Positions 3,691-23,391 of a stretch of 26,338 bases of DNA are shown piece by piece. This DNA comes from a virus. The stretch spans positions 1-26,338 of the IMG/VR virus record IMGVR_UViG_3300020171_000117; one strand, written 5' to 3'. The notes under the pieces are model-generated. The model made no database searches, was not told the origin of the DNA, and saw only the letters and a program-made list of their open reading frames with translations. How positions within the stretch are numbered: the first letter of the stretch is position 1; every line of letters starts with the position of its first letter. The position numbers and the translations under genes were made by a program.

Positions 3691-6600
3691 TTAATAGCCC
3701 CATCTCTGAAGTTTTTTTAATCTATCATCAACTTTTTCTACGAAATCATTAAAAGTATTTTCATCTGCAATCAATGTAGCTCCTGCTTCTATTGTTATAA
3801 TTGAATTAATATTTATTGTATTCCCTGCTCTTGATTGAGACTGTTTATTATTAAGTGGTATAACCTCTTCGGTACCATGTAATACCACAGGATATCCACT
3901 TTCAGGGCCACTAAATATTCCACCATCTTTACCACCGAGGCAATCTGACCATGAATCTTCATAATAATCTTTAAATCCTTTTCCCCAATCATCCCAGGCT
4001 TTTGATGTATATGCTGTATAATCGTTGGGTGTTAAAAGAGATACTACAAATGGCTTGATTGTTGTTGCTAACGTTCCTTTGACATCTTCCCAGATTTTTG
4101 TTGGGCTTGTTAAACGAGTATAACAATCGCCAAAAATTTCACCCCATTGTGGATTTGTATAATCTATAAAATCAAAAACCCAATTTAAAATATCATATAT
4201 TCCGCCTCCTATCATTCCAGATGCTTCATCTTTGACTTCAGATTCAACAAAGTAGTCTACAGTATCATCTATGACATCCCCTATAATACTATTCCATCCA
4301 TAACCAACATTTTTATTTCCTATTTGTCCCCCTTTTTCAAAAAGAAGATCATCTCCCCATTTTTTACCACCATATGATGACATAACTACACCAATATAAT
4401 ATGTAACTGCATCTTTTATGCCTTGATATATGCCACCATCATACCACCCCTTTAAAAAAGTTGTAAGACCGGCTTCTTGTAAATCATCTGCTACCGGTCT
4501 CCAGTCTGTAACTGTACCCCCTTCCGCATATTTCTTTCCACAAGGCCCGCCATTGCACAGTCTATCTTCATTTATTGCTTTAATCAGATCAAAATATTTA
4601 TTAGTGCTTTTTTGATTAATTACATATTCGCCTCCCATACCCCAGTGATTAATTCCAGGAGTTTGACCTAAATAAACATCATCTTTTGTTCTGCTGCCCT
4701 GTTGAATTATACCACCCATAGGATGATTTTCTATCCAACCGCCCTGTGCTTTAAATTCTTTTGCTACATGTTTTGCTCCGGCCATAAGAGCTATTGCTCC
4801 AGCAAGATATGCAGCACCATAACCCAATTTTGCTGCCACAGTATCACCTTGCGTTGAAGATGAAGCTGTTCCTAAACCAATATATGGCCCTATCACGGCT
4901 ATAATTTGATCTATTGCAGCATTATATAATGCTGTAGCTCCTTTGCCTGCAAGGTCAACTATCATATCTTTTGCCAATTCAGATGCCTTAACTTTTACAT
5001 CCTCTCCTCTTATCCATGTATCAACTATTGTTTTTACTGCATTATTATAACTATCTGCAATATCCTCAGCATATTCCTTACCTTTCTCGGCCCATGTTTT
5101 TGTTGCTTCATTCATATCTTTGATGCCGAGTTTAAACCCATCAACCCAAGTACCATTTGATAATAACATTTTGTCATTGTTTTTTTCAACTTGATCGACA
5201 TACCAAGCATCAATAGCAGCTTTATCTTTAACCGATACTTTATGATCGTTAGCTTCATCTTTATAAAGCTCCATGTATGCATCTCTTTGTGCATCAATCA
5301 GAGTTTGTTCTGCTTTAAAATAATCTCTTGAACTACCACCCATATCTTTCAACATATTACGAGCAGCCGTAGCACGATCGGCAGCAAGTTGTTTGGCGGC
5401 TTTGGCGGCATCTTTTATAGCTTTAGCTTTAGCGTCTTCAGTGTCTTCAACATCTTTTACTTCATCATCCAGTATTTTTTTCTTTTCTACTGCGGCTTTT
5501 GCAGCAGCTTTAACTTGTTCTAAAAATGATACTTTAATTTTTGCTGCTATTTCTAATGCAGCTTCAGTATTTTTCTTTGCTATAGCTTCTATATCTTCTA
5601 TGACTAATTCTTTAGTCTTATTCATCCCCGACTTTATATCAGACATCATTTTATCCCATGCTGAAAAAATAGTCTCTGTATATGCTGTCCAATTAGTTTC
5701 CATTTCGGCAACATATTTTTTATTAGTTTCCCCAAAATTAGCCAGAATATTAGCAGCACCTGAAAAATTGAAAGATAATGCATTCCATATTAATGTTCCT
5801 AAATTTACAAATTGCTCGCCTATCATTTTTACTGTTGCAATAGCATCACTAACCATTACACCAAAAGTTCCGCCTATTGATTTACCCAAATAAACAAAAA
5901 CATTAATAATATCTTCACCCCACTGCCCCATAAAATTCCAAAATTCTTGAAAAGATGTTTGTGGTGGGACTTCAACTTCACTGATAGCTTTATTTAAATT
6001 ATTTATTTCTTCAGTAGCTTTTTTAGTTTCATCTGCTACATTTGTAAAAAAAGTTATTACACCAGATGGAACAGCACTAAACAACGCCCATAAATCTGTG
6101 ACTGCGTCCCATGTAAATTTTACCGCCTCCCAAGCAAGACCAACTCCATCAATTATTATTGAACTTACAGAATAAAAAGCATCTCCAATAGTTTTCAGGA
6201 CTTTCTTTATTTCATCTTCGTTTTTCTTTATTACATTAGCAAAATCATTTATTTTTTCCGCTAAATATATAAATACTTCTTTCCCTTGAGTTTTAAAAAG
6301 ATCAAATACTGATATAGCCAATTCTTGCATGGCAGACAACATAACTTTCCATTGACCTTGAAATGTGTCCATCATTCTGGCGTACATCTCTGCTGTTCTA
6401 CCAACTCCTTTTTGAGATTCTTTTAACATATCTACAAATCCGGCAAAATCTGATTCTCCACTAACTGCTGCTTGTGCAAGTTTCTTCATATTTAAACCAG
6501 ATTCTGATCCAAATATAGCTACTGCTTGTTTTGTTGTGATACTCTTCTCGCCTATTGTTGTAAGAATTTCTCCAAATGTATTTGTCTCAGGATTGATTTG

Positions 6601-7308
6601 TTCAAATATCAATCCCATTTCTGTTAGTGCCGCTGTAGCTTCATCAGTTCCTTTTACTAATTGAACCATTGCCATCCTTAAATTTCTACCTGCCATCCCA
6701 CCCTGTAAACCGAGATTGGCAAATTGAGCAACGGCAGCAGTAGTTTGTTCAATAGACCATTCTAAAGCAGATCCAGTTGTGCCAGCAAATTTCATTGCTT
6801 CGGTTAATTTTTCCATAGTTAATTGTGATTTAGTTATTGCAGCAGCATATGTATCAGTTATTCGTCTTGAATCTTCTGCATCTAAGCCGAACTGTTTCAT
6901 TGATGATGCTAATAATCCAGTAGCTTGTGTCATTTCAGATCCTGTTGCCCCTGCTAATTTCATAGCATGTTCAACACTATCAACTATTTGACGGGTATTC
7001 ATTCCGGCAGAAGCAAGATCATACATTCCTTCAGCTGCTTGAGTAGCAGTAAAGGCAGTAGTTTTTCCTAATTCTCTTGCTTTGTTTTCTAATGCTTCTA
7101 AATCTTTGCCAAACGCTCCTGCAACTGTAGCTGTTTCTGTTAATGCTTGTTCAAATTTACCACCTACTAAACTAACAGCAGTTATAGCAGCAGTAAAAGC
7201 AATCGCCATTTTTTTAGCAGCAGAACTGGCTATATTACCAGCTTTTGCTAATCCACTTTTAAAGCCAGTAAGATCAGCTCCAATTCGTACAAGCATTGAC
7301 TCATTCAT
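3691..7308 (-). CDS. Tail tape measure protein (1205 aa)
   Basis: It sets tail length and is packed inside the tail tube. The N-terminal 300 or so residues match the TP901-type tape measure domain, with FEQALTETATVAGAFGKDL, KTTAFTATQAAEGMYDLA and GLQGGMAGRNLRMAMVQL. Hydrophobic helices follow around residues 380-480. A charged Ala/Lys-rich helical part lies about 570-680, and another hydrophobic segment about 790-860. The C-terminus has GGIFSGPESGYPVVLHGTEEVIPL-type sequence, a common ending of tape measures. The ATG overlaps the preceding chaperone frame stop as TAATG, with AAAGGT just upstream. The length would give a moderately long tail, roughly 0.15 nm per residue by the usual rule. Confidence 0.93.
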   Translation of the reverse strand: MNESMLVRIGADLTGFKSGLAKAGNIASSAAKKMAIAFTAAITAVSLVGGKFEQALTETATVAGAFGKDLEALENKARELGKTTAFTATQAAEGMYDLASAGMNTRQIVDSVEHAMKLAGATGSEMTQATGLLASSMKQFGLDAEDSRRITDTYAAAITKSQLTMEKLTEAMKFAGTTGSALEWSIEQTTAAVAQFANLGLQGGMAGRNLRMAMVQLVKGTDEATAALTEMGLIFEQINPETNTFGEILTTIGEKSITTKQAVAIFGSESGLNMKKLAQAAVSGESDFAGFVDMLKESQKGVGRTAEMYARMMDTFQGQWKVMLSAMQELAISVFDLFKTQGKEVFIYLAEKINDFANVIKKNEDEIKKVLKTIGDAFYSVSSIIIDGVGLAWEAVKFTWDAVTDLWALFSAVPSGVITFFTNVADETKKATEEINNLNKAISEVEVPPQTSFQEFWNFMGQWGEDIINVFVYLGKSIGGTFGVMVSDAIATVKMIGEQFVNLGTLIWNALSFNFSGAANILANFGETNKKYVAEMETNWTAYTETIFSAWDKMMSDIKSGMNKTKELVIEDIEAIAKKNTEAALEIAAKIKVSFLEQVKAAAKAAVEKKKILDDEVKDVEDTEDAKAKAIKDAAKAAKQLAADRATAARNMLKDMGGSSRDYFKAEQTLIDAQRDAYMELYKDEANDHKVSVKDKAAIDAWYVDQVEKNNDKMLLSNGTWVDGFKLGIKDMNEATKTWAEKGKEYAEDIADSYNNAVKTIVDTWIRGEDVKVKASELAKDMIVDLAGKGATALYNAAIDQIIAVIGPYIGLGTASSSTQGDTVAAKLGYGAAYLAGAIALMAGAKHVAKEFKAQGGWIENHPMGGIIQQGSRTKDDVYLGQTPGINHWGMGGEYVINQKSTNKYFDLIKAINEDRLCNGGPCGKKYAEGGTVTDWRPVADDLQEAGLTTFLKGWYDGGIYQGIKDAVTYYIGVVMSSYGGKKWGDDLLFEKGGQIGNKNVGYGWNSIIGDVIDDTVDYFVESEVKDEASGMIGGGIYDILNWVFDFIDYTNPQWGEIFGDCYTRLTSPTKIWEDVKGTLATTIKPFVVSLLTPNDYTAYTSKAWDDWGKGFKDYYEDSWSDCLGGKDGGIFSGPESGYPVVLHGTEEVIPLNNKQSQSRAGNTININSIITIEAGATLIADENTFNDFVEKVDDRLKKLQRWGY

Positions 7309-8082: not shown

Positions 8083-8658
8083 TTAAATCGCTGTATATCC
8101 AGTAGAAAAACTTGAAATTCTGGTTACATCACCATAGCATTGGCCATTTACAGATAGTGTTAAGCCGTCTGCTGATTCTGATATGGATTGTTCGCCAGCC
8201 GGCAAATAAACTTCTTCATATCTATAACCTAAAGTAGTTGAACTTGCTATCCATGCTATTTCCAATCTATAAGCGTATTTTGCAGTATTATCTGCAAAAT
8301 TAGGTAATGCTACTCCATCAATCGAAGTTTTACTTTTAAAACTATATAATTGAGTTGTCCCACTAATTTTAGTTACTCCACTTATCCAATCACTTAATAC
8401 TCTGGTATTTGTAGTATCCGCCAGCTTACATGAAAATGTAACTGGTAGTGGAGCATATCTTGGGTCATCAACTCCTTCAACATAATGAGCATCAGTATCA
8501 AACTGACCTCTATTCATAATTAGAGTTTCAGCCGTTCTTGGCCTTGAAGTAGGGCCAGAAAAATTCATTTCACAAAATAAAACTTCGAGATATCTTGTTG
8601 TTCCATTTAATCCAAATTCTGCTATTCTTAATTCACCATCTTTACCTTGTAATAACAT
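8083..8658 (-). CDS. Major tail tube protein, copy 2 (191 aa)
   Basis: It starts MLLQGKDGELRI and shares with its upstream neighbour an identical block running from about EVLFCEMNFSGP to PVTFSCKLADT, plus the C-terminal GEQSISESADGLTLSVNGQ. Only the segment before the core and the middle (about residues 85-150) differ. The strand-rich fold, position just ahead of the chaperones and perfect AGGAGGTGAT ribosome binding site (high expression) all fit a tube protein. Having two full copies suggests either two tube subunits or one tube and one tail-tip/decoration variant. Which one forms the tube cannot be decided from sequence. Confidence 0.7.
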   Translation of the reverse strand: MLLQGKDGELRIAEFGLNGTTRYLEVLFCEMNFSGPTSRPRTAETLIMNRGQFDTDAHYVEGVDDPRYAPLPVTFSCKLADTTNTRVLSDWISGVTKISGTTQLYSFKSKTSIDGVALPNFADNTAKYAYRLEIAWIASSTTLGYRYEEVYLPAGEQSISESADGLTLSVNGQCYGDVTRISSFSTGYTAI

Positions 8659-9210
8659 TTATATCACCTCCTGTTAAATAAATATTGCTATACTTGCTCC
8701 ACTATAGAAAGCGGTTATACGAGTTACATCACCATAGCATTGGCCATTTACAGATAGTGTCAAGCCGTCTGCTGATTCTGATATTGATTGTTCTCCATGT
8801 TTAAAGCAGACTTCTTCCCACCTATATCCTAAATCATTACTTGACCCATCCCACAACACTTCTACTCTATAACTTCTTTTGTTTGGATCTGCAAAAGAAG
8901 CCAAAGTATTTCCATCAATCGTAGAAGAGCCATCCCATGAATAAACTACACTTGATGCGCTTGCTGTATTAGTAACCGTAACTCCTCCAACTCCTTCGGC
9001 AGTTAGCCAATCCATTAACATTGTTGTATTAACTGTATCCGCCAGCTTACATGAAAATGTAACTGGTAGTGGAGCATATCTTGGGTCATCAACTCCTTCA
9101 ACATAATGAGCATCAGTATCAAACTGACCTCTATTCATAATTAGAGTTTCAGCCGTTCTTGGCCTTGAAGTAGGGCCAGAAAAATTCATTTCACAAAATA
9201 AAACTTCGAG
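8414..9210. repeat. 176-bp perfect direct repeat shared by the two tube genes
   Basis: Positions 8414-8589 and 9035-9210 read identically, base for base, as far as I can compare by eye. A second nearly identical block covers about 8125-8200 and 8724-8799 (a 38-bp perfect run with a few changes around it). The DNA between the blocks differs. Identity including third codon positions points to recent duplication or ongoing gene conversion. Confidence 0.9.
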
Positions 9211-9297
9211 CCAATAAGTAGTTCCGGAAGGGTCGCTTCCTCTAATAGCTCCTTTTTCATATATTCTTAATTCACCATCTTTACCTTGTAGTAACAT
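8674..9297 (-). CDS. Major tail tube protein, copy 1 (207 aa)
   Basis: This is a paralogue of the gene at 8083-8658, 15 nt upstream, with the same N-terminal core and C-terminal motif and a longer, different middle (GGVTVTNTASASSVVYSWDG). The N-terminus carries an extra seven or so residues (IRGSDPSG). GAGGTG lies seven bases before the ATG. The shared core is identical at the DNA level over 176 bp, while the centre is unrelated enough that only structure would align it. It follows the small helical gene at 9310 and the tail terminator. The role is as for its partner: tube subunit, or a variant that decorates or ends the tube. Confidence 0.7.
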   Translation of the reverse strand: MLLQGKDGELRIYEKGAIRGSDPSGTTYWLEVLFCEMNFSGPTSRPRTAETLIMNRGQFDTDAHYVEGVDDPRYAPLPVTFSCKLADTVNTTMLMDWLTAEGVGGVTVTNTASASSVVYSWDGSSTIDGNTLASFADPNKRSYRVEVLWDGSSNDLGYRWEEVCFKHGEQSISESADGLTLSVNGQCYGDVTRITAFYSGASIAIFI

Positions 9298-11489: not shown

Positions 11490-11765
11490 TTAACTTCCTC
11501 CATTTTGTTTCTTTATAGCGATTGGAATTTTAGCCGCCCCTACTTGTACAATTTGCATATTGGGAGTAATTTCTTTAGGTGATAAAAACATTTTATTCTC
11601 TAAATCAAAAACCCAGTCTAAAGGAATATTCATTTTTAACTTCTCGCTAAGAATAATATTGACTAAGTTTGCTTCTGTTGTCTGAATAACTGATTTTAAA
11701 TTCTTAATTTCTGATTGATAAAAAGCAATTGCATTAATTCCTTCTGCTGTAACTTGTTTTGACAT
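11490..11765 (-). CDS. Small phage protein (91 aa) that is the C-terminal part of the fused frame
   Basis: Inside the long frame at 11490-13595, codon 611 is an ATG preceded at seven bases by a perfect AAGGAG (11773-11778). Translation from here gives a 91-residue protein: MSKQVTAEGINAIAFYQSEI, then a helix, then IPLDWVFDLENKMFLSP, and a short Gly-ending tail. The helix-then-WxFDxEN pattern looks to me like small phage proteins of head-neck regions. The Wzy domain upstream needs no such tail. I therefore think this is an older phage gene with its own start that became joined in frame to an inserted gene. Both the free and fused forms could be made. Confidence 0.6.
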   Translation of the reverse strand: MSKQVTAEGINAIAFYQSEIKNLKSVIQTTEANLVNIILSEKLKMNIPLDWVFDLENKMFLSPKEITPNMQIVQVGAAKIPIAIKKQNGGS

Positions 11766-13595
11766 AATTCTTCTCCTTGGAAATGGCGCAAGATGCCATA
11801 TTTTTTGTAATTCAGCTTTAGCGGCATCAAATAATGGATAAAAAAATAATGAATCCTTAAAAAACCTAACTGCATCTTCATATTGTTTATTTGCTACTTT
11901 TGCTATTCCACTGTTTAAAGCCATCACCCATGCCGGAGTCATCCCATCAAAATGTTGCCTCATAGATTCTGCATGTTGATCTGCTTCATTTGGAAAAGCA
12001 TCTATATATCCAATCATAGCATGTGTTCTAAATATTGTATCTTTTGGACAATAAGTTAATGCCTTTTGCAAATATCGTTCTTTATTAATTGCTACTGATG
12101 AAAAACTGTAACATCTGAAATAATAATTTCCTAAATTTGGTTTTATTGACCCTTCCCATATCATCGCCGACAAAGCCAGTAATACAAATAACACTAAAAT
12201 AAAATTACTTTGAAAACTTATTAATTCTATACTTCCGGTAATTCCTTCAATCATAGCTAAACCAATCCATATTGCTAATACAGATGAAGAAAGTCTTAAT
12301 GGAAAGAAAAAGAAAACATTAACGAGAACTCCTATGATACCAGAAAGAACTCCACTAATTAAAACGAAATCTTTTATTGAATTAACATTGCATAAAAATT
12401 CAAAGCCATGAAAAAATATAATAAACAAAATAACTAAAAATAATAATCCGCCTGTAATTCCGCCTTCAACAAAATTTTCTATAAAATCATTATGACATTC
12501 CCTCGGCTGTGGTGTTTGATAATTTTTTCCAAGAAATTGCCCATCTTTAGCATGTAATACTCCTTGTGCATAATATACTTCTTTTCTATATGTTCTTAAT
12601 CCGTAGCCTTGTAATGGTTTCTTTTTTATCAATTCCCATGCAGCTCTCCAATATCGCAATCTATATCTTAAATGAGCAATTGGATGATCTTGATGAGTAT
12701 GTTCTATGTCTAAATGCGTATTTATTCTACATTGCTTATTTGATAATATTTTTAACGGATTGATTCTTCTTACTTTTAATAAAAAATGCAGTCCAATAAA
12801 TAAAACAAAAGACAATAAAGCTAAAAACAAATGCATTGGCAAATTAGCAAATAATACAAAGCACGAATCAAAAACCAATCCTCTGAAAGAAATTAAAAAT
12901 AAGAAAGATAATATTGAAATTACTATTGCTAATATTGCTGCCCTACATTGAGTACATATTATAGCTGAAACTAAAATCATAATAGACAACAAAAACCAGA
13001 TTGATATTTCTACTGTTAAAAATATTAAAAATGGCAATGCTGATAAAAAATAGCCTGCTGCAAAATTAGTGTTTCCCAAACTCGATATTGATCTACTGTC
13101 TATAAAATTCTTATTATAAAAAAATGTTGGTATTTGTTCTTTAGTCTTCCCTTTAAAATCTTCTGTTCTTGATTTTACTCTTTCTGGAAATAAAAAATCT
13201 ATCCTAAACTTTTGTCCAATTGCATATATGGAAGTTATCATTGAAACAAAAAACACAGATAAACTTACACCAACAATATTACTAAAATTTTTAAACAAAT
13301 AGCTTGCAATTATAAATCCAAATATTGAAACAAATATTAACGGTACGTCTCTTAACGAATTATGTGGAACTGTTGACCATGAACAGCTCATCATTAAATA
13401 CAAAAAATATAAAAGAGCCAAAACACTTGTTAAATTTATTGGAAAAAATCCATTACTAATAAAAAATATTGTTGTTAGACTTATACCGATCGCTGCTATT
13501 CCAATTTGTGGTAAAATATATCCATCTAAACTTTTTAAAGGACAAAAAACTAATGGTGAAATTATTAATGTTAAACATAAAAATAATAAATCCAA
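11490..13595 (-). CDS. O-antigen polymerase/ligase (Wzy/WaaL-like) with TPR, fused to small phage protein (701 aa)
   Basis: It starts at a TTG (13593-13595) with AAGGAG five bases upstream. There are about a dozen hydrophobic membrane segments between residues 1 and 475. Family motifs: SISSLGNTNFAAGYFLSALPF (about 169-189, part of the typical 'G-N-x-N' loop), RYRLRYWRAAWELIKKKPLQGYG (about 310-332) and PRECHNDFIENFVEGG (364-379), containing the His-Asn of the Wzy_C/O-antigen-ligase family. A helical repeat part (about 500-600, TPR-like, 'KQYEDAVRFFKDSLFFYPL') follows, then a separate phage protein from codon 611. Such enzymes polymerise or ligate lipid-linked O-units at the inner membrane. 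It lies between virion genes, which is a very odd place, and probably was acquired. Confidence 0.85.
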   Translation of the reverse strand: MDLLFLCLTLIISPLVFCPLKSLDGYILPQIGIAAIGISLTTIFFISNGFFPINLTSVLALLYFLYLMMSCSWSTVPHNSLRDVPLIFVSIFGFIIASYLFKNFSNIVGVSLSVFFVSMITSIYAIGQKFRIDFLFPERVKSRTEDFKGKTKEQIPTFFYNKNFIDSRSISSLGNTNFAAGYFLSALPFLIFLTVEISIWFLLSIMILVSAIICTQCRAAILAIVISILSFLFLISFRGLVFDSCFVLFANLPMHLFLALLSFVLFIGLHFLLKVRRINPLKILSNKQCRINTHLDIEHTHQDHPIAHLRYRLRYWRAAWELIKKKPLQGYGLRTYRKEVYYAQGVLHAKDGQFLGKNYQTPQPRECHNDFIENFVEGGITGGLLFLVILFIIFFHGFEFLCNVNSIKDFVLISGVLSGIIGVLVNVFFFFPLRLSSSVLAIWIGLAMIEGITGSIELISFQSNFILVLFVLLALSAMIWEGSIKPNLGNYYFRCYSFSSVAINKERYLQKALTYCPKDTIFRTHAMIGYIDAFPNEADQHAESMRQHFDGMTPAWVMALNSGIAKVANKQYEDAVRFFKDSLFFYPLFDAAKAELQKIWHLAPFPRRRIMSKQVTAEGINAIAFYQSEIKNLKSVIQTTEANLVNIILSEKLKMNIPLDWVFDLENKMFLSPKEITPNMQIVQVGAAKIPIAIKKQNGGS

Positions 13596-19539: not shown

Positions 19540-20247
19540 TTAGCTTTTATTTTCTTTTATAATCATAGCATCACAAAATCCATATTTTCTTCTTTCCAAA
19601 ATTTCTAATGGAATTTTATCTTTAGCTATATTATAGATAATTTTTTTTCTTTGGAATTTATCAACTTTTTCTGATAAAGGTATTTGAGATAAAAGTAAAA
19701 TTAAGTTAGAATCAATATATGGAAGTAATACTTCTATATCATTTGAATTTCTATTAAGTGGTTCTAATTGTTTTTTTTGTAATTTCCTAATAAATTTATA
19801 ATATGTTTTTTCATTTGGATATTTCATATGTTCGTAATAGCCACCAGTAAATTCATCTATTCCATCACACGCTATTATTTTTTTAATTTTTTTCAATTTT
19901 AAATTATTATAAAACATTCTTACAATTTCGTCTCCTGAACAATCATTCTTAAGTCTTTTAGGAATTTTACGAGGAGTATATATTTCTCCTTTTACTTTAA
20001 AATAATTTATTGCTATATTGGAATAAATATAATCGGGATGTTTTTCATTTAATGCAATTGTAAAAGTCTTAATATTTTTTCTAAATATTTTTGTCATGAA
20101 GTAGAGCATTAAAGATGAATCAACTCCTCCAGATAATGCTAAACAATTACAATTTAATTCTTTTATAATTTGTATTAATTGTTTTTCTATATCAATTAAA
20201 GTAATTTTTATTCCAATTTGTTTCCAATTTATAGGATATGTAATCAT
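19540..20247 (-). CDS. Asparagine synthase-like PP-loop ATPase (235 aa), inserted in head genes
   Basis: The PP-loop LALSGGVDSSLM (about residues 36-47) binds ATP and releases pyrophosphate. CDGIDEFTGGYY (127-138) matches the AsnB 'G-x-D-E-x-x-G-G-Y' element. LPYIDSNL (175-182) and LERRKYGF (217-224) match the later AsnB motifs, so this is an asparagine-synthase C-terminal domain of slightly reduced size. The N-terminal glutaminase domain is missing; it would have to use free ammonia or a partner protein. The stop of the portal is three bases upstream and the Mu F-like gene starts two bases downstream, without good ribosome binding sites. The Lys/Ile-rich composition is like its neighbours. 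The substrate is unknown. Confidence 0.85.
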   Translation of the reverse strand: MITYPINWKQIGIKITLIDIEKQLIQIIKELNCNCLALSGGVDSSLMLYFMTKIFRKNIKTFTIALNEKHPDYIYSNIAINYFKVKGEIYTPRKIPKRLKNDCSGDEIVRMFYNNLKLKKIKKIIACDGIDEFTGGYYEHMKYPNEKTYYKFIRKLQKKQLEPLNRNSNDIEVLLPYIDSNLILLLSQIPLSEKVDKFQRKKIIYNIAKDKIPLEILERRKYGFCDAMIIKENKS

Positions 20248-20250
20248 TAT

Positions 20251-23200
20251 TTATTTATCTTGATCCGACCATTTAGTTTTTTTAACACTCGCCAATCCCC
20301 ATAACACAGCATATTCTATTTTATTTATTTCTTTAATTTTAACTTTAAACCCATTGTTTAAATGATCATAAACAATTTTTGGCATTTTACTTATATCTTC
20401 AATATCTAAAACGTGTTGAAAAATCTTTCCATCTTTAATATGTTTTTGTTGAAATTTTATTCCTTTCATATCTTTTTTTTCATATAATTCACAATGATGC
20501 AAAATTTCCATTTCACTTTCTTTTTTAGGTTGATGCATATGATGAATTAAATATATCCAATCTTGTTCCGCTAAAAGCTTTTCTGCTTCTTCTATATTTA
20601 ATATATCAAAATCATATTTATGTTCTTTCAAAAGATTTTTTATATTTTCTTGTAATCCAAGAATTTTTGTTTTAGATATATTTTTTTCTATATTTTCTTT
20701 TGATTTTATTATCTCAATCAGATCATTGAGTTCTTTCTGAGGAATGCCACCAATATTCTCGCATATTTTTATAATTTTATCATAATCTTCATTATCTATT
20801 GCTTCATTTAACTCGTTATTACTGCCATACTGATTTATTGGAGAAACAGGCATATTAAAAGGCGATTTGAATTGATTGCCTCCGATTCCTCCAGTAAATT
20901 CGTCGTCATCTTCCCCTTCCATATTACCTTTTTCTATATCGTAATCCAACCCCATTTTAGCATCCCATGTTCTTTTGGAAACAGCCTTATATTTAAATAA
21001 AGTCTCATATGCTTTGGCCAATTTATCCAAATCAGCCTGAATCATTGGAGGAAATTCTACTCGACAAGTAGTTTTTGTATCTTCTGGCAAATCTCCATAT
21101 TTTATTTTATTATTAATTACTTTTTCAACTAAATCTTCATAAAAACTTGCAAAAAAATCTTGCCAGTCTTCAATCTCTCTAACCCATGGATTTTGTGCAA
21201 TTAATGATGATGAGTAATTTGCATTCGAGTTCCCCGATATTAATATTCTGCCTTTTCTTCTTGTAACCAATAATCCATTAGGAACTGTTGCACACCAAAT
21301 ATTGCCATTATAATTTATTTGTTCTATATTCTTTCTTAAAACCATACAATTATGTCCGTCACTTATATTTACATATTTGACACTATCTCCGAAATCTTTT
21401 GTTTCGACATTAAGACTGCTTGTTGTATGATAACCCAATTCAAAGGCAAGTCTTTGAACATCATTAACTAATCTTAATGAATTACTATAATACCGTCGAA
21501 ATGTTCTTTTTACTTTATCGCTATCTTCTTTATAGTCAGATCCATCACCCTTTATCAATGTATCTAATAATTTTTCTTTCAATTCGGTTGAAAGAGCCCA
21601 AACAAATTCAGGTAATTTTTTATTCCTACTTCCAACACCACAATTTGTTCTTAACCAAGAAGCTAGCGCTTGATCATAAGTTCTCCAATAACAAGCAATT
21701 TCATTTCCTATCCCTAAATTTTCATATTCTTTATATTTAAAATCAAAAGGAAGCTCAGAAATTAATTTTTTTATTTCATTCACATTCTCTTCATTTTTAT
21801 AAGTTTGACAAATATTAACGTGCCCACTTTTCTTATTGACAGATCCTTCAGATACAAACCATCCAATAAATTCTATCATTTTATCAATTCGGATAAATCT
21901 ATCTTCTTCTTTATTTGTTCCTTCTATTAAATGTTTTGTCTTTTCTGGATAATCATATTTTGTTATACAAACATACTCGTTATTTTTTTCTTCATTTTCT
22001 GCCGGTTCGATAAAATTCCTTATTGAAGAGAATTTAGTTCTCCATCCTTTATCTGAAGTATCTCCTAATGTGCATTTTGTAAAATTATCAATACCTCTAT
22101 CTTGTCTATATATAGGGAGTTTATGAGAACTTTCTGAACGCAGCCACATATGATGATTTTTTGTTACTAAAAAATTAAGTCTATTTCCTTCAAATAAAAA
22201 TGCTCTGCCATTATATTTAGAAAAAACCCAATTAATTGGGTTTTGATATTCTAATTTCCCATTTTCTTGACTTACTGTTCCAAGTTTAAAACCAAATTTA
22301 TATGCTTCTAATGAATCCATAAATCCATGATCTGTTAAAATTTCAGTTTCCGTATCATGACAGTAATCGGCTGTGAATATCATTTCAGGCATTCCAACAG
22401 CAGCCGCAATTGATAATAACATTGCTCTACCATCTTCGCCTACATCAGACGCATTTATATTTGGTGAAAGCATCTCATAACTTATTCCTTTACTGGCTGT
22501 AAGCACCGTTCCTCTTGCAAACATTTTCTGCTTTTTTCTATCCTGTGAATGTCTTGTACTGATATTTTCATCTCTAATACTTCCTATTTTTCCAACATTG
22601 CCTTCAACCTTTCTTATTAACGCAATAGCACTTCGGATTTTATTCAATACTATTCTATCTTCAAGCCATTCATCATATTGTCTTATTCTTTTTGCGCATA
22701 CTCTGAGAATAGAAATACCTCTTTTTTGGTCTGAATCAGATAATATTTTAATATGTATCATGTTATTTGCAGAAATACTTTCCTGAAAATCACCATTCAT
22801 ATTAACCTTATAATATTTCAGTGGAGTTTCAATATCATCTGATTCAGTTTCTATACCATAGCTAACTTTATCTGTAAGAGTTTTATCTTTGGGATTTGCA
22901 ATACTATTTGCCCGTATAAATCTTATTTTAGTATCTCCGTTTTCCTCATCAACAAAATCTCTTAAAAAACATTCTCCGTCTCTGAATGTTCTTACTGCTA
23001 TTTCTTTTTCTCTAAGATTGAATTTATTTATTCTTTTAAATCCATTCCATGCTTCCTTAACTTTCTCATTCTCGTCATCAAATATAATTTGTGGCCCTTT
23101 CCCCAAAACGAATTTAACCAATCCTCTTATTATTGCTCTTGCATGTGGGTTATTATGATATAATTTATAAGCGGACAGCAGCATATCCTGATGATTATCT

Positions 23201-23391
23201 TCTGTTCCACTAAAGCCGCTTGAATCAGAACCACCTATTAAAAACCAGTCTTTAGCCAACTCATCATCAACTACAGCGTTACTTACTTCAAGAACATCAT
23301 TCATCATTTTTATAGATGCTTCATATTCCTTAATTTTTAATCCACTCTCTAATTTTTTCAATTTTAACTTATCTTTAAAAATATCAAACAT
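20251..23391 (-). CDS. Portal protein interrupted by an intein (1046 aa; 668 aa after splicing)
   Basis: Residues 1-343 and 722-850 form a lambda-type portal. The N-terminal part has AYKLYHNNPHARAIIRGLVKF and FRDGECFLRD, the middle RGISILRVCAKRIRQYDEW and IAAAVGMPEMIFTADY; after the intein come SNANYSSSLIAQNPWVREIE and the stem part. It forms the ring through which DNA enters. The intein splits TADY from SNANYSS, a conserved site. After residue 850 an unusual C-terminal extension of nearly 200 charged residues follows (KIFQHVLDIED, EYAVLWGLASVKKTKW) that I do not recognise. AAGGA lies seven bases before the ATG, and a 34-bp repeat lies 55 nt further up. Confidence 0.92.
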   Translation of the reverse strand: MFDIFKDKLKLKKLESGLKIKEYEASIKMMNDVLEVSNAVVDDELAKDWFLIGGSDSSGFSGTEDNHQDMLLSAYKLYHNNPHARAIIRGLVKFVLGKGPQIIFDDENEKVKEAWNGFKRINKFNLREKEIAVRTFRDGECFLRDFVDEENGDTKIRFIRANSIANPKDKTLTDKVSYGIETESDDIETPLKYYKVNMNGDFQESISANNMIHIKILSDSDQKRGISILRVCAKRIRQYDEWLEDRIVLNKIRSAIALIRKVEGNVGKIGSIRDENISTRHSQDRKKQKMFARGTVLTASKGISYEMLSPNINASDVGEDGRAMLLSIAAAVGMPEMIFTADYCHDTETEILTDHGFMDSLEAYKFGFKLGTVSQENGKLEYQNPINWVFSKYNGRAFLFEGNRLNFLVTKNHHMWLRSESSHKLPIYRQDRGIDNFTKCTLGDTSDKGWRTKFSSIRNFIEPAENEEKNNEYVCITKYDYPEKTKHLIEGTNKEEDRFIRIDKMIEFIGWFVSEGSVNKKSGHVNICQTYKNEENVNEIKKLISELPFDFKYKEYENLGIGNEIACYWRTYDQALASWLRTNCGVGSRNKKLPEFVWALSTELKEKLLDTLIKGDGSDYKEDSDKVKRTFRRYYSNSLRLVNDVQRLAFELGYHTTSSLNVETKDFGDSVKYVNISDGHNCMVLRKNIEQINYNGNIWCATVPNGLLVTRRKGRILISGNSNANYSSSLIAQNPWVREIEDWQDFFASFYEDLVEKVINNKIKYGDLPEDTKTTCRVEFPPMIQADLDKLAKAYETLFKYKAVSKRTWDAKMGLDYDIEKGNMEGEDDDEFTGGIGGNQFKSPFNMPVSPINQYGSNNELNEAIDNEDYDKIIKICENIGGIPQKELNDLIEIIKSKENIEKNISKTKILGLQENIKNLLKEHKYDFDILNIEEAEKLLAEQDWIYLIHHMHQPKKESEMEILHHCELYEKKDMKGIKFQQKHIKDGKIFQHVLDIEDISKMPKIVYDHLNNGFKVKIKEINKIEYAVLWGLASVKKTKWSDQDK
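21229..22362 (-). mobile_element. LAGLIDADG intein in the portal gene (378 aa)
   Basis: The intein runs from Cys344 (codon 22360-22362) to Asn721 (21229-21231), followed by Ser722 as +1 residue. Block A is CHDTETEILTDHGF; block B is VTKNHHMW (409-416). The two endonuclease motifs are FIGWFVSEGS (508-517) and LLDTLIKGDGS (608-618). Block F is IWCATVPNG (698-706), and block G ends ISGN with Gly in place of the usual His. Removal restores the portal sequence TADYSNANYSS exactly. With both endonuclease motifs intact it may still home. The Trp-Cys pair in block F is like class 3 inteins, yet Cys1 is present. Confidence 0.93.

Follow-up and report, generated by a model that had tools for sequence, protein, structure and literature searches.

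Class 1 inteins usually carry an Asp at position F:4. Class 3 inteins are defined by the absence of a nucleophile at position 1 together with Trp at B:12, Cys at F:4 and Thr at G:5 (the WCT triplet), and their Trp B:12 stands two residues after the block B His, as do His65 and Trp67 of Msm DnaB-1 (PMC5222942). The Thr at position B:7 is generally missing from class 3 inteins (PMC6195587). The AceL NrdHF split intein was assigned a class 3 mechanism by mutation despite Met at B:12 and without the two C-terminal His residues; it has Ala at position 1, and its splicing begins at the F:4 Cys (PMC7891396). In class 1 mycobacteriophage inteins a Gly is found in the penultimate place; it works in the RDF intein, where a change to His leads to accumulation of the precursor (PMC5050341). 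A failed graft has been taken to mean that class 3 is unlikely to have arisen directly from class 1 (PMC7664689).

The stretch of DNA analysed here (the window, an IMG/VR virus record of 26,338 bases) carries, according to its gene annotation, the head/tail gene cluster of a tailed phage on the minus strand. One open reading frame of this cluster contains an in-frame intein, and judged by its profile matches its product is a lambda-type portal protein. The parts of the gene are as follows (all on the minus strand).

20251-23391, minus strand: portal protein open reading frame with in-frame intein, 1046 amino acids (Pfam Phage_portal_2, E=5.5e-19; phrog_21 portal, E=1.7e-25).
22363-23391, minus strand: N-extein, residues 1-343, ending in IFTADY; from the translation and from intein-free relatives that are 47-66% identical.
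21229-22362, minus strand: intein of 378 amino acids, portal residues 344-721; from motifs and alignment, with a predicted fold like that of whole inteins with HINT and LAGLIDADG domains.
22321-22362, minus strand: block A with Cys1 (CHDTETEILTDHGF); Cys1, Leu9, Thr10 and Gly13 are invariant in an alignment of eight inteins.
22141-22182, minus strand: block B with Thr67 (B:7), His70 (B:10), Met72 (B:12) and Trp73 (B:13); Thr67 and His70 are invariant in the same alignment.
21844-21870, minus strand: first LAGLIDADG motif, FIGWFVSEG, with the acid Glu172; from sequence, Pfam and predicted fold.
21541-21570, minus strand: second LAGLIDADG motif, LLDTLIKGDG, with the acid Asp273; from sequence, Pfam and fold, Asp273-Gly274 being invariant in the eight inteins.
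21292-21297, minus strand: block F with Trp356 (F:3) and Cys357 (F:4, portal residue 700); Cys357 is invariant in the eight inteins.
21229-21237, minus strand: end of block G with Ser376 (G:5), Gly377 (G:6) and Asn378 (G:7); Gly377 and Asn378 are invariant in the eight inteins.
21226-21228, minus strand: Ser+1, the first C-extein residue, which opens the conserved portal motif SNANYSS and is Ser in 7 of 8 empty alleles.
20251-21228, minus strand: C-extein, 325 amino acids and the stop codon, collinear with intein-free relatives.

The portal protein is extended at its C-terminal end (window positions about 20251-20900, minus strand) relative to most intein-free portals, and the spliced protein would have 668 residues compared with about 510-550 in most of them.

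Translation of window positions 21229-22362 (minus strand) is free of stop codons and gives 378 residues from Cys1 (portal residue 344) to Asn378 (portal residue 721), followed directly by Ser+1. An earlier note on this DNA had described an intein in the portal gene with Cys1 at residue 344, a Gly-Asn end and Ser+1, and the exact coordinates, the translation, the intein-free alleles and an orthologous intein (L169, see below) bear this out. The two LAGLIDADG motifs that it had listed were also found: the Pfam LAGLIDADG_3 model matches the insert above its cut-off (E=3.2e-9) and both motifs keep their acids. The Pfam intein model PF14890 made no call on the portal intein. Across the eight aligned phage inteins Cys1, Thr67, His70, Cys357, Gly377 and Asn378 are invariant, and the block F Cys lies in the F:4 column as had been proposed. 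The class 1 features Cys1, block B TxxH (T67-K-N-H70), terminal Asn378 and Ser+1 are thus all present.

The earlier note had also proposed a class-3-like Trp-Cys pair and, from it, an intermediate between the classes, with an alignment at B:12, F:4 and G:5 as the check. In that alignment only one of the three WCT residues is present, the Cys at F:4; position B:12 is Met72 and position G:5 is Ser376. In TKNHHMW the block B His residues are indeed followed by a Trp, but it sits at B:13, since the His of the TxxH motif is His70. We also considered His71 as B:10, which would move the Trp to B:12; this register was rejected as it breaks the invariant TxxH (Thr67/His70), and the L169 ortholog keeps SxxH at that place. 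The 21 residues from Cys357 to Asn378 match the spacing in class 3, but the presence of Cys1 as position-1 nucleophile goes against the class 3 definition. The Trp-Cys pair did not survive, given the Trp at B:13, the Ser at G:5 and a splicing domain that falls in a phage clade apart from classical class 3.

This clade, with Cys1, Cys at F:4 and a Gly-Asn end, is a grouping defined in the present analysis. Its residue frequencies were counted in 18 phage inteins picked by similarity to the window intein, to AceL NrdHF or, for two Gordonia inteins, to the intein L032, with block residues playing no part in the choice. Cys1 was found in 18/18, Cys at F:4 in 17/18 and Gly at G:6 in 18/18, and from these counts the three features are the rule in the phage group. 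Thr at G:5 was present in 10/18 and Trp at B:12 in 3/18, the latter figure being inflated because two of the three were found through L032, which itself has Trp at B:12. The host genes encode a nucleotidyltransferase, a T4-gp55-like protein, a methyltransferase, DNA polymerase, helicase, ribonucleotide reductase, thymidylate synthase, terminase and portal proteins, so as far as these sequences go the combination is not specific to portals. The best database match of the portal intein was the nucleotidyltransferase intein of mycobacteriophage cluster C1 (Daffodil gp3 and others; E=2e-18 to 3e-18). The Daffodil gp3 intein shares Cys1, the F:4 Cys and Gly-Asn and has TPNHRM as its own block B; unlike the portal intein, with which it is 26% identical, it has a different host gene, Thr+1 and a Val before the F:4 Cys.

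A tree built from the splicing blocks only placed 26 inteins with Cys1, F:4 Cys and Gly-Asn, including that of the window, on one side of a branch with support of 100/97, and 21 class 3 inteins were separate (99/96). The class 3 references were the mycobacteriophage cluster C1 exonuclease intein and its IMG/VR relatives. The canonical class 1 references (Npu DnaE, gp41-1, Ssp DnaB, Mtu RecA and Mxe GyrA) were included in the tree, with Mtu RecA lacking most of its endonuclease part; none of the main contrasts depends on these five. Holding the window intein and L169 with class 3 was rejected in an AU test (p 0.0215), and a single origin of all inteins with an F:4 Cys was not rejected (p 0.339). 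With models built without the window intein and L169, the window splicing domain reached 94.7 bits with that of the phage clade, compared with 7.9 for class 3 and 7.3 for canonical class 1. Blocks A and B alone provided too few columns to resolve the groups, and the window intein still stood beside L169 and Daffodil. The classical class 3 inteins (Msm DnaB-1, 6bs8; Mch DnaB1, 6rix; the mycobacteriophage exonuclease intein) share with the portal intein the HINT fold and the F:4 Cys; they differ in that they mostly lack a position-1 nucleophile and have DxxH, Trp B:12 and a Thr-His-Asn end. Cys1 together with an F:4 Cys is hence no mixture of classes, and the proposed intermediate was abandoned, as Cys1, F:4 Cys and Gly-Asn are common in the phage group and grouping with class 3 is rejected. 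From its sequence, the most likely assignment of the portal intein is to class 1, with a homing endonuclease, and within a large phage family it is an ordinary case.

Some phage inteins combine Cys1 with the complete WCT triplet. Eight such inteins are in the tree (L004, the portal intein of Gordonia phage Woes, and L025, L027, L029, L032, L033, L037 and L074), and two more, L183 (Gordonia phage Belphegor portal) and L184 (GMA3 TerL), bring the total to at least ten. The IMG/VR members were collected in a scan requiring Trp-Cys and Thr at G:5, and their share is therefore no frequency. Those in the tree cluster together within the phage clade with moderate support (95/70), outside classical class 3, and holding them with class 3 was rejected (p 0.0256). 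The Woes and Belphegor inteins resemble that of the window in their portal host, Cys1, Trp-Cys at F:3-F:4 and Gly-Asn/Ser, but they have Trp B:12 and Thr G:5, the full WCT, and are inserted in other portal families. As these phage inteins combine Cys1 with the full WCT and yet fall outside the clade of class 3, the triplet is not by itself diagnostic of that class. In 2011 Tori and Perler reportedly described inteins that have the WCT triplet along with Cys1 or Ser1 and use the class 3 route, among them that of mycobacteriophage Catera gp206. The Catera gp206 intein is a class 3 intein and splices (PMC3196547).

The clade has a link to AceL NrdHF. The top PDB match of the clade profile was AceL NrdHF (6zgq, E=3e-10); the class 3 profile matched the Msm and Mch DnaB inteins at E of about 1e-33, and 6zgq was not among its PDB matches at E up to 1. 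The native AceL sequence was provided by five IMG/VR contigs (L188-L192) with an identical AceL N part: its N half begins DE/ALLVGTKVTT and its C half ends FHCLSVPGKSFVVTDEHGNRSVTGN/S, where the slash marks the intein boundary. Numbering from Ala1 gives His68 and Met70, in agreement with PMC7891396, and the other residues of interest are Ser65, Cys124, Thr144-Gly145-Asn146 and Ser+1. AceL NrdHF scored 57.9 bits with the phage-clade model, compared with 10.4 for class 3 and 7.4 for canonical class 1; in the tree it joins the clade as its outermost branch (100/97); placing it with classical class 3 was disfavoured, not rejected (p 0.085). Like the portal intein it has Met B:12, Cys F:4 and Gly-Asn/Ser+1; it differs in Ala1, Ser B:7, Thr G:5, its split form, the lack of LAGLIDADG motifs and its demonstrated class 3 mechanism. 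From its sequence AceL NrdHF looks like a relative of the clade whose Cys1 became Ala, with the F:4 Cys taking over. Since it lies outside the other members, Cys1 may have been lost within the clade or before it.

No paper linking AceL NrdHF to the phage clade was found in the open-licence literature. We tentatively suggest, at somewhat less than even odds, that the clade was the stock for a second, independent origin of class 3, with AceL NrdHF as a member that lost Cys1 and now starts from the F:4 Cys. If so, ordinary members, including the portal intein, would hold a latent second nucleophile, and some of them might splice, at least weakly, without Cys1. Clade members with an F:4 Cys and no His at G:6 are natural starting points for re-testing the argument of PMC7664689. 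The portal intein itself is one more phage intein; the link of its clade to AceL NrdHF is the part worth following.

An AlphaFold2 model of the portal intein made from ten aligned sequences had a mean pLDDT of 72.9 and a pTM of 0.77 and was weak at residues 80-131. Its best structural match was TliVMA (7qsu; Z 22.1, rmsd 4.3, 292 residues aligned), and it also matched the whole inteins with endonuclease PI-PkoII (2cw7, Z 20.7), PI-SceI (Z up to 17.5) and PI-PfuI (Z 16.1). Model residues 132-343 matched the LAGLIDADG endonucleases I-Tsp061I (Z 14.6) and I-DmoI (Z 13.6), and together with the motifs this points to an apparently intact LAGLIDADG homing endonuclease. Among the mini-inteins listed, AceL NrdHF was the top match by fold (Z 12.8, 135 aligned) and Npu DnaE the next (Z 11.8), a gap between model-based scores too small to carry weight alone.

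The intein is inserted at ADY^SNANY in a conserved portal motif, as the earlier note had stated, and a search for intein-free alleles of the kind it called for yielded eight portals that are uninterrupted at this site (L008, L009, L010, L164, L168, L170, L172 and L173, the last from a bacterial genome assembly). These portals are 47-66% identical to the window N-extein and read (T/S)(A/G/S)D(Y/T/W)^(S/A)N(A/S)N without a break. An orthologous intein at exactly the same site was found in L169 (IMGVR_UViG_3300017963_001175), and searches of IMG/VR with the window intein or a two-sequence profile returned no other close copy. The L169 intein shares the ADY^SNANY site and the HHMW, WC and SGN motifs; it differs in having Ser at B:7, where the window has Thr, and 367 residues instead of 378. 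Because the empty alleles match both flanks and an orthologous intein occupies the same site, chance is ruled out for the intein. The empty allele of L009 reads ADY^ANANY, with Ala at +1, which should block splicing of an intein inserted there; it is possibly a resistant allele.

Protein identity is 57.8% between the two inteins and 55-58% between the exteins; at the DNA level it is 65.1% for the inteins and 57-59% for the exteins, with synonymous sites saturated. The L169 intein has 33.7% GC within a locus of 44.0% GC, as expected of a mobile element. This pattern of identity and base composition fits an element that entered one or both of these lineages after their split; an old insertion common to both is a possible alternative. 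Between the endonuclease parts dN was 0.38 and dS 2.27, the latter near saturation and indicative only; the dN/dS of about 0.2 indicates purifying selection on the endonuclease.

We favour, with a probability of roughly 0.8, a full-length mobile class 1 intein of a tailed phage that splices by the Cys1 route and spreads by means of its LAGLIDADG endonuclease. This reading follows from the presence of Cys1, TxxH, the terminal Asn and a +1 nucleophile, and from Cys1 in all 18 phage inteins; against it are the lack of Asp at F:4 and of His at G:6, and AceL NrdHF of the same clade, which starts from its F:4 Cys (PMC7891396). The anatomy with its exact boundaries, the ortholog at the same site, the empty alleles, the predicted fold and the clade are established; from these we infer splicing, cutting, a role for Cys357 and every chemical step of the following route. 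After folding, Thr67 and His70 would strain the Tyr343-Cys1 bond, and an N-S acyl shift would move the N-extein onto Cys1. The N-extein would then be transferred to Ser+1, Asn378 (preceded by Gly instead of His) would cyclise, and an O-N shift would yield the joined portal protein, TADY-SNANY. Cys357, at F:4 in the usual place of the class 1 Asp, would most likely coordinate the N- and C-terminal steps. By cutting portal alleles that have no intein at ADY^SNANY, the LAGLIDADG domain would make the gene spread.

Cys1 and the F:4 Cys are each close to fixation in the clade, and the F:4 Cys of Msm DnaB-1 is central between the two junctions, where class 1 inteins have their Asp (PMC6195587). These observations are consistent with a relay in which Cys1 forms the first thioester and the N-extein passes to Cys357 and on to Ser+1, with both cysteines on the path. 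We consider such a relay improbable: the literature we found describes none, and an Asp in the same place works as a non-nucleophile, so that conservation alone is no proof. Slightly less probable still is a class 3 mechanism, in which Cys357 would attack the N-terminal bond first and Cys1 would be dispensable. Cys357 does occupy F:4, and among solved relatives the closest to the clade, AceL NrdHF, splices in this way (PMC7891396) and groups with the clade at 100/97. However, Cys1 is kept in all other clade members examined, which would be unexpected of a dispensable residue; the portal intein has neither Trp B:12 nor Thr G:5, its Thr at B:7 is what class 1 inteins have, and the AU test rejects placing it with classical class 3 (p 0.0215). 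The second option of the earlier note, a different branching step, is accordingly a less likely possibility, though one for which AceL NrdHF, with Ala1 and a start from the F:4 Cys, offers an example (PMC7891396). The missing His at G:6 and the low-confidence model region at residues 80-131 might suggest an intein that is decayed or conditional, splices poorly and leaves a long portal protein, but this is very unlikely given 378 open codons with all catalytic positions kept, the dN/dS of about 0.2 relative to L169, Gly at G:6 as the clade norm (18/18) and a portal that is presumably essential to the phage. The Cys1 route is thus the reading that we retain.

Other inserts and gene differences were observed in the window and its relatives. 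In L008 a MuF-like open reading frame (3945-6704) that adjoins the intein-free portal has two intein-like inserts with His-Asn ends. The terminase open reading frame of L010 (1967-4111) has a small intein-like insert (CFVAGQD...GIVSHN) right after NRTGGK of the large terminase, and the terminases of the related L008 and L009 are uninterrupted at this position. Between the portal and MuF genes of the window (19540-20247, minus strand) lies an asparagine-synthase-like open reading frame (PF00733, E=2.9e-17), which is not at that place in L008 and L009; L010 has a metallophosphoesterase-like open reading frame there instead. Window positions 11490-13595 (minus strand), inside the head/tail cluster, encode a membrane protein that contains an O-antigen ligase domain (Wzy_C, E=3.8e-17). 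Finally, the adjacent open reading frames at 8083-8658 and 8674-9297 (minus strand) share near-identical stretches (beginning MLLQGKDGELRI, and EVLFCEMNFSGPTSRPRTAETLIMNRGQFDTDAHYVEGVDDPRYAPLPVTFSCKLADT) and are apparently a tandem duplication.
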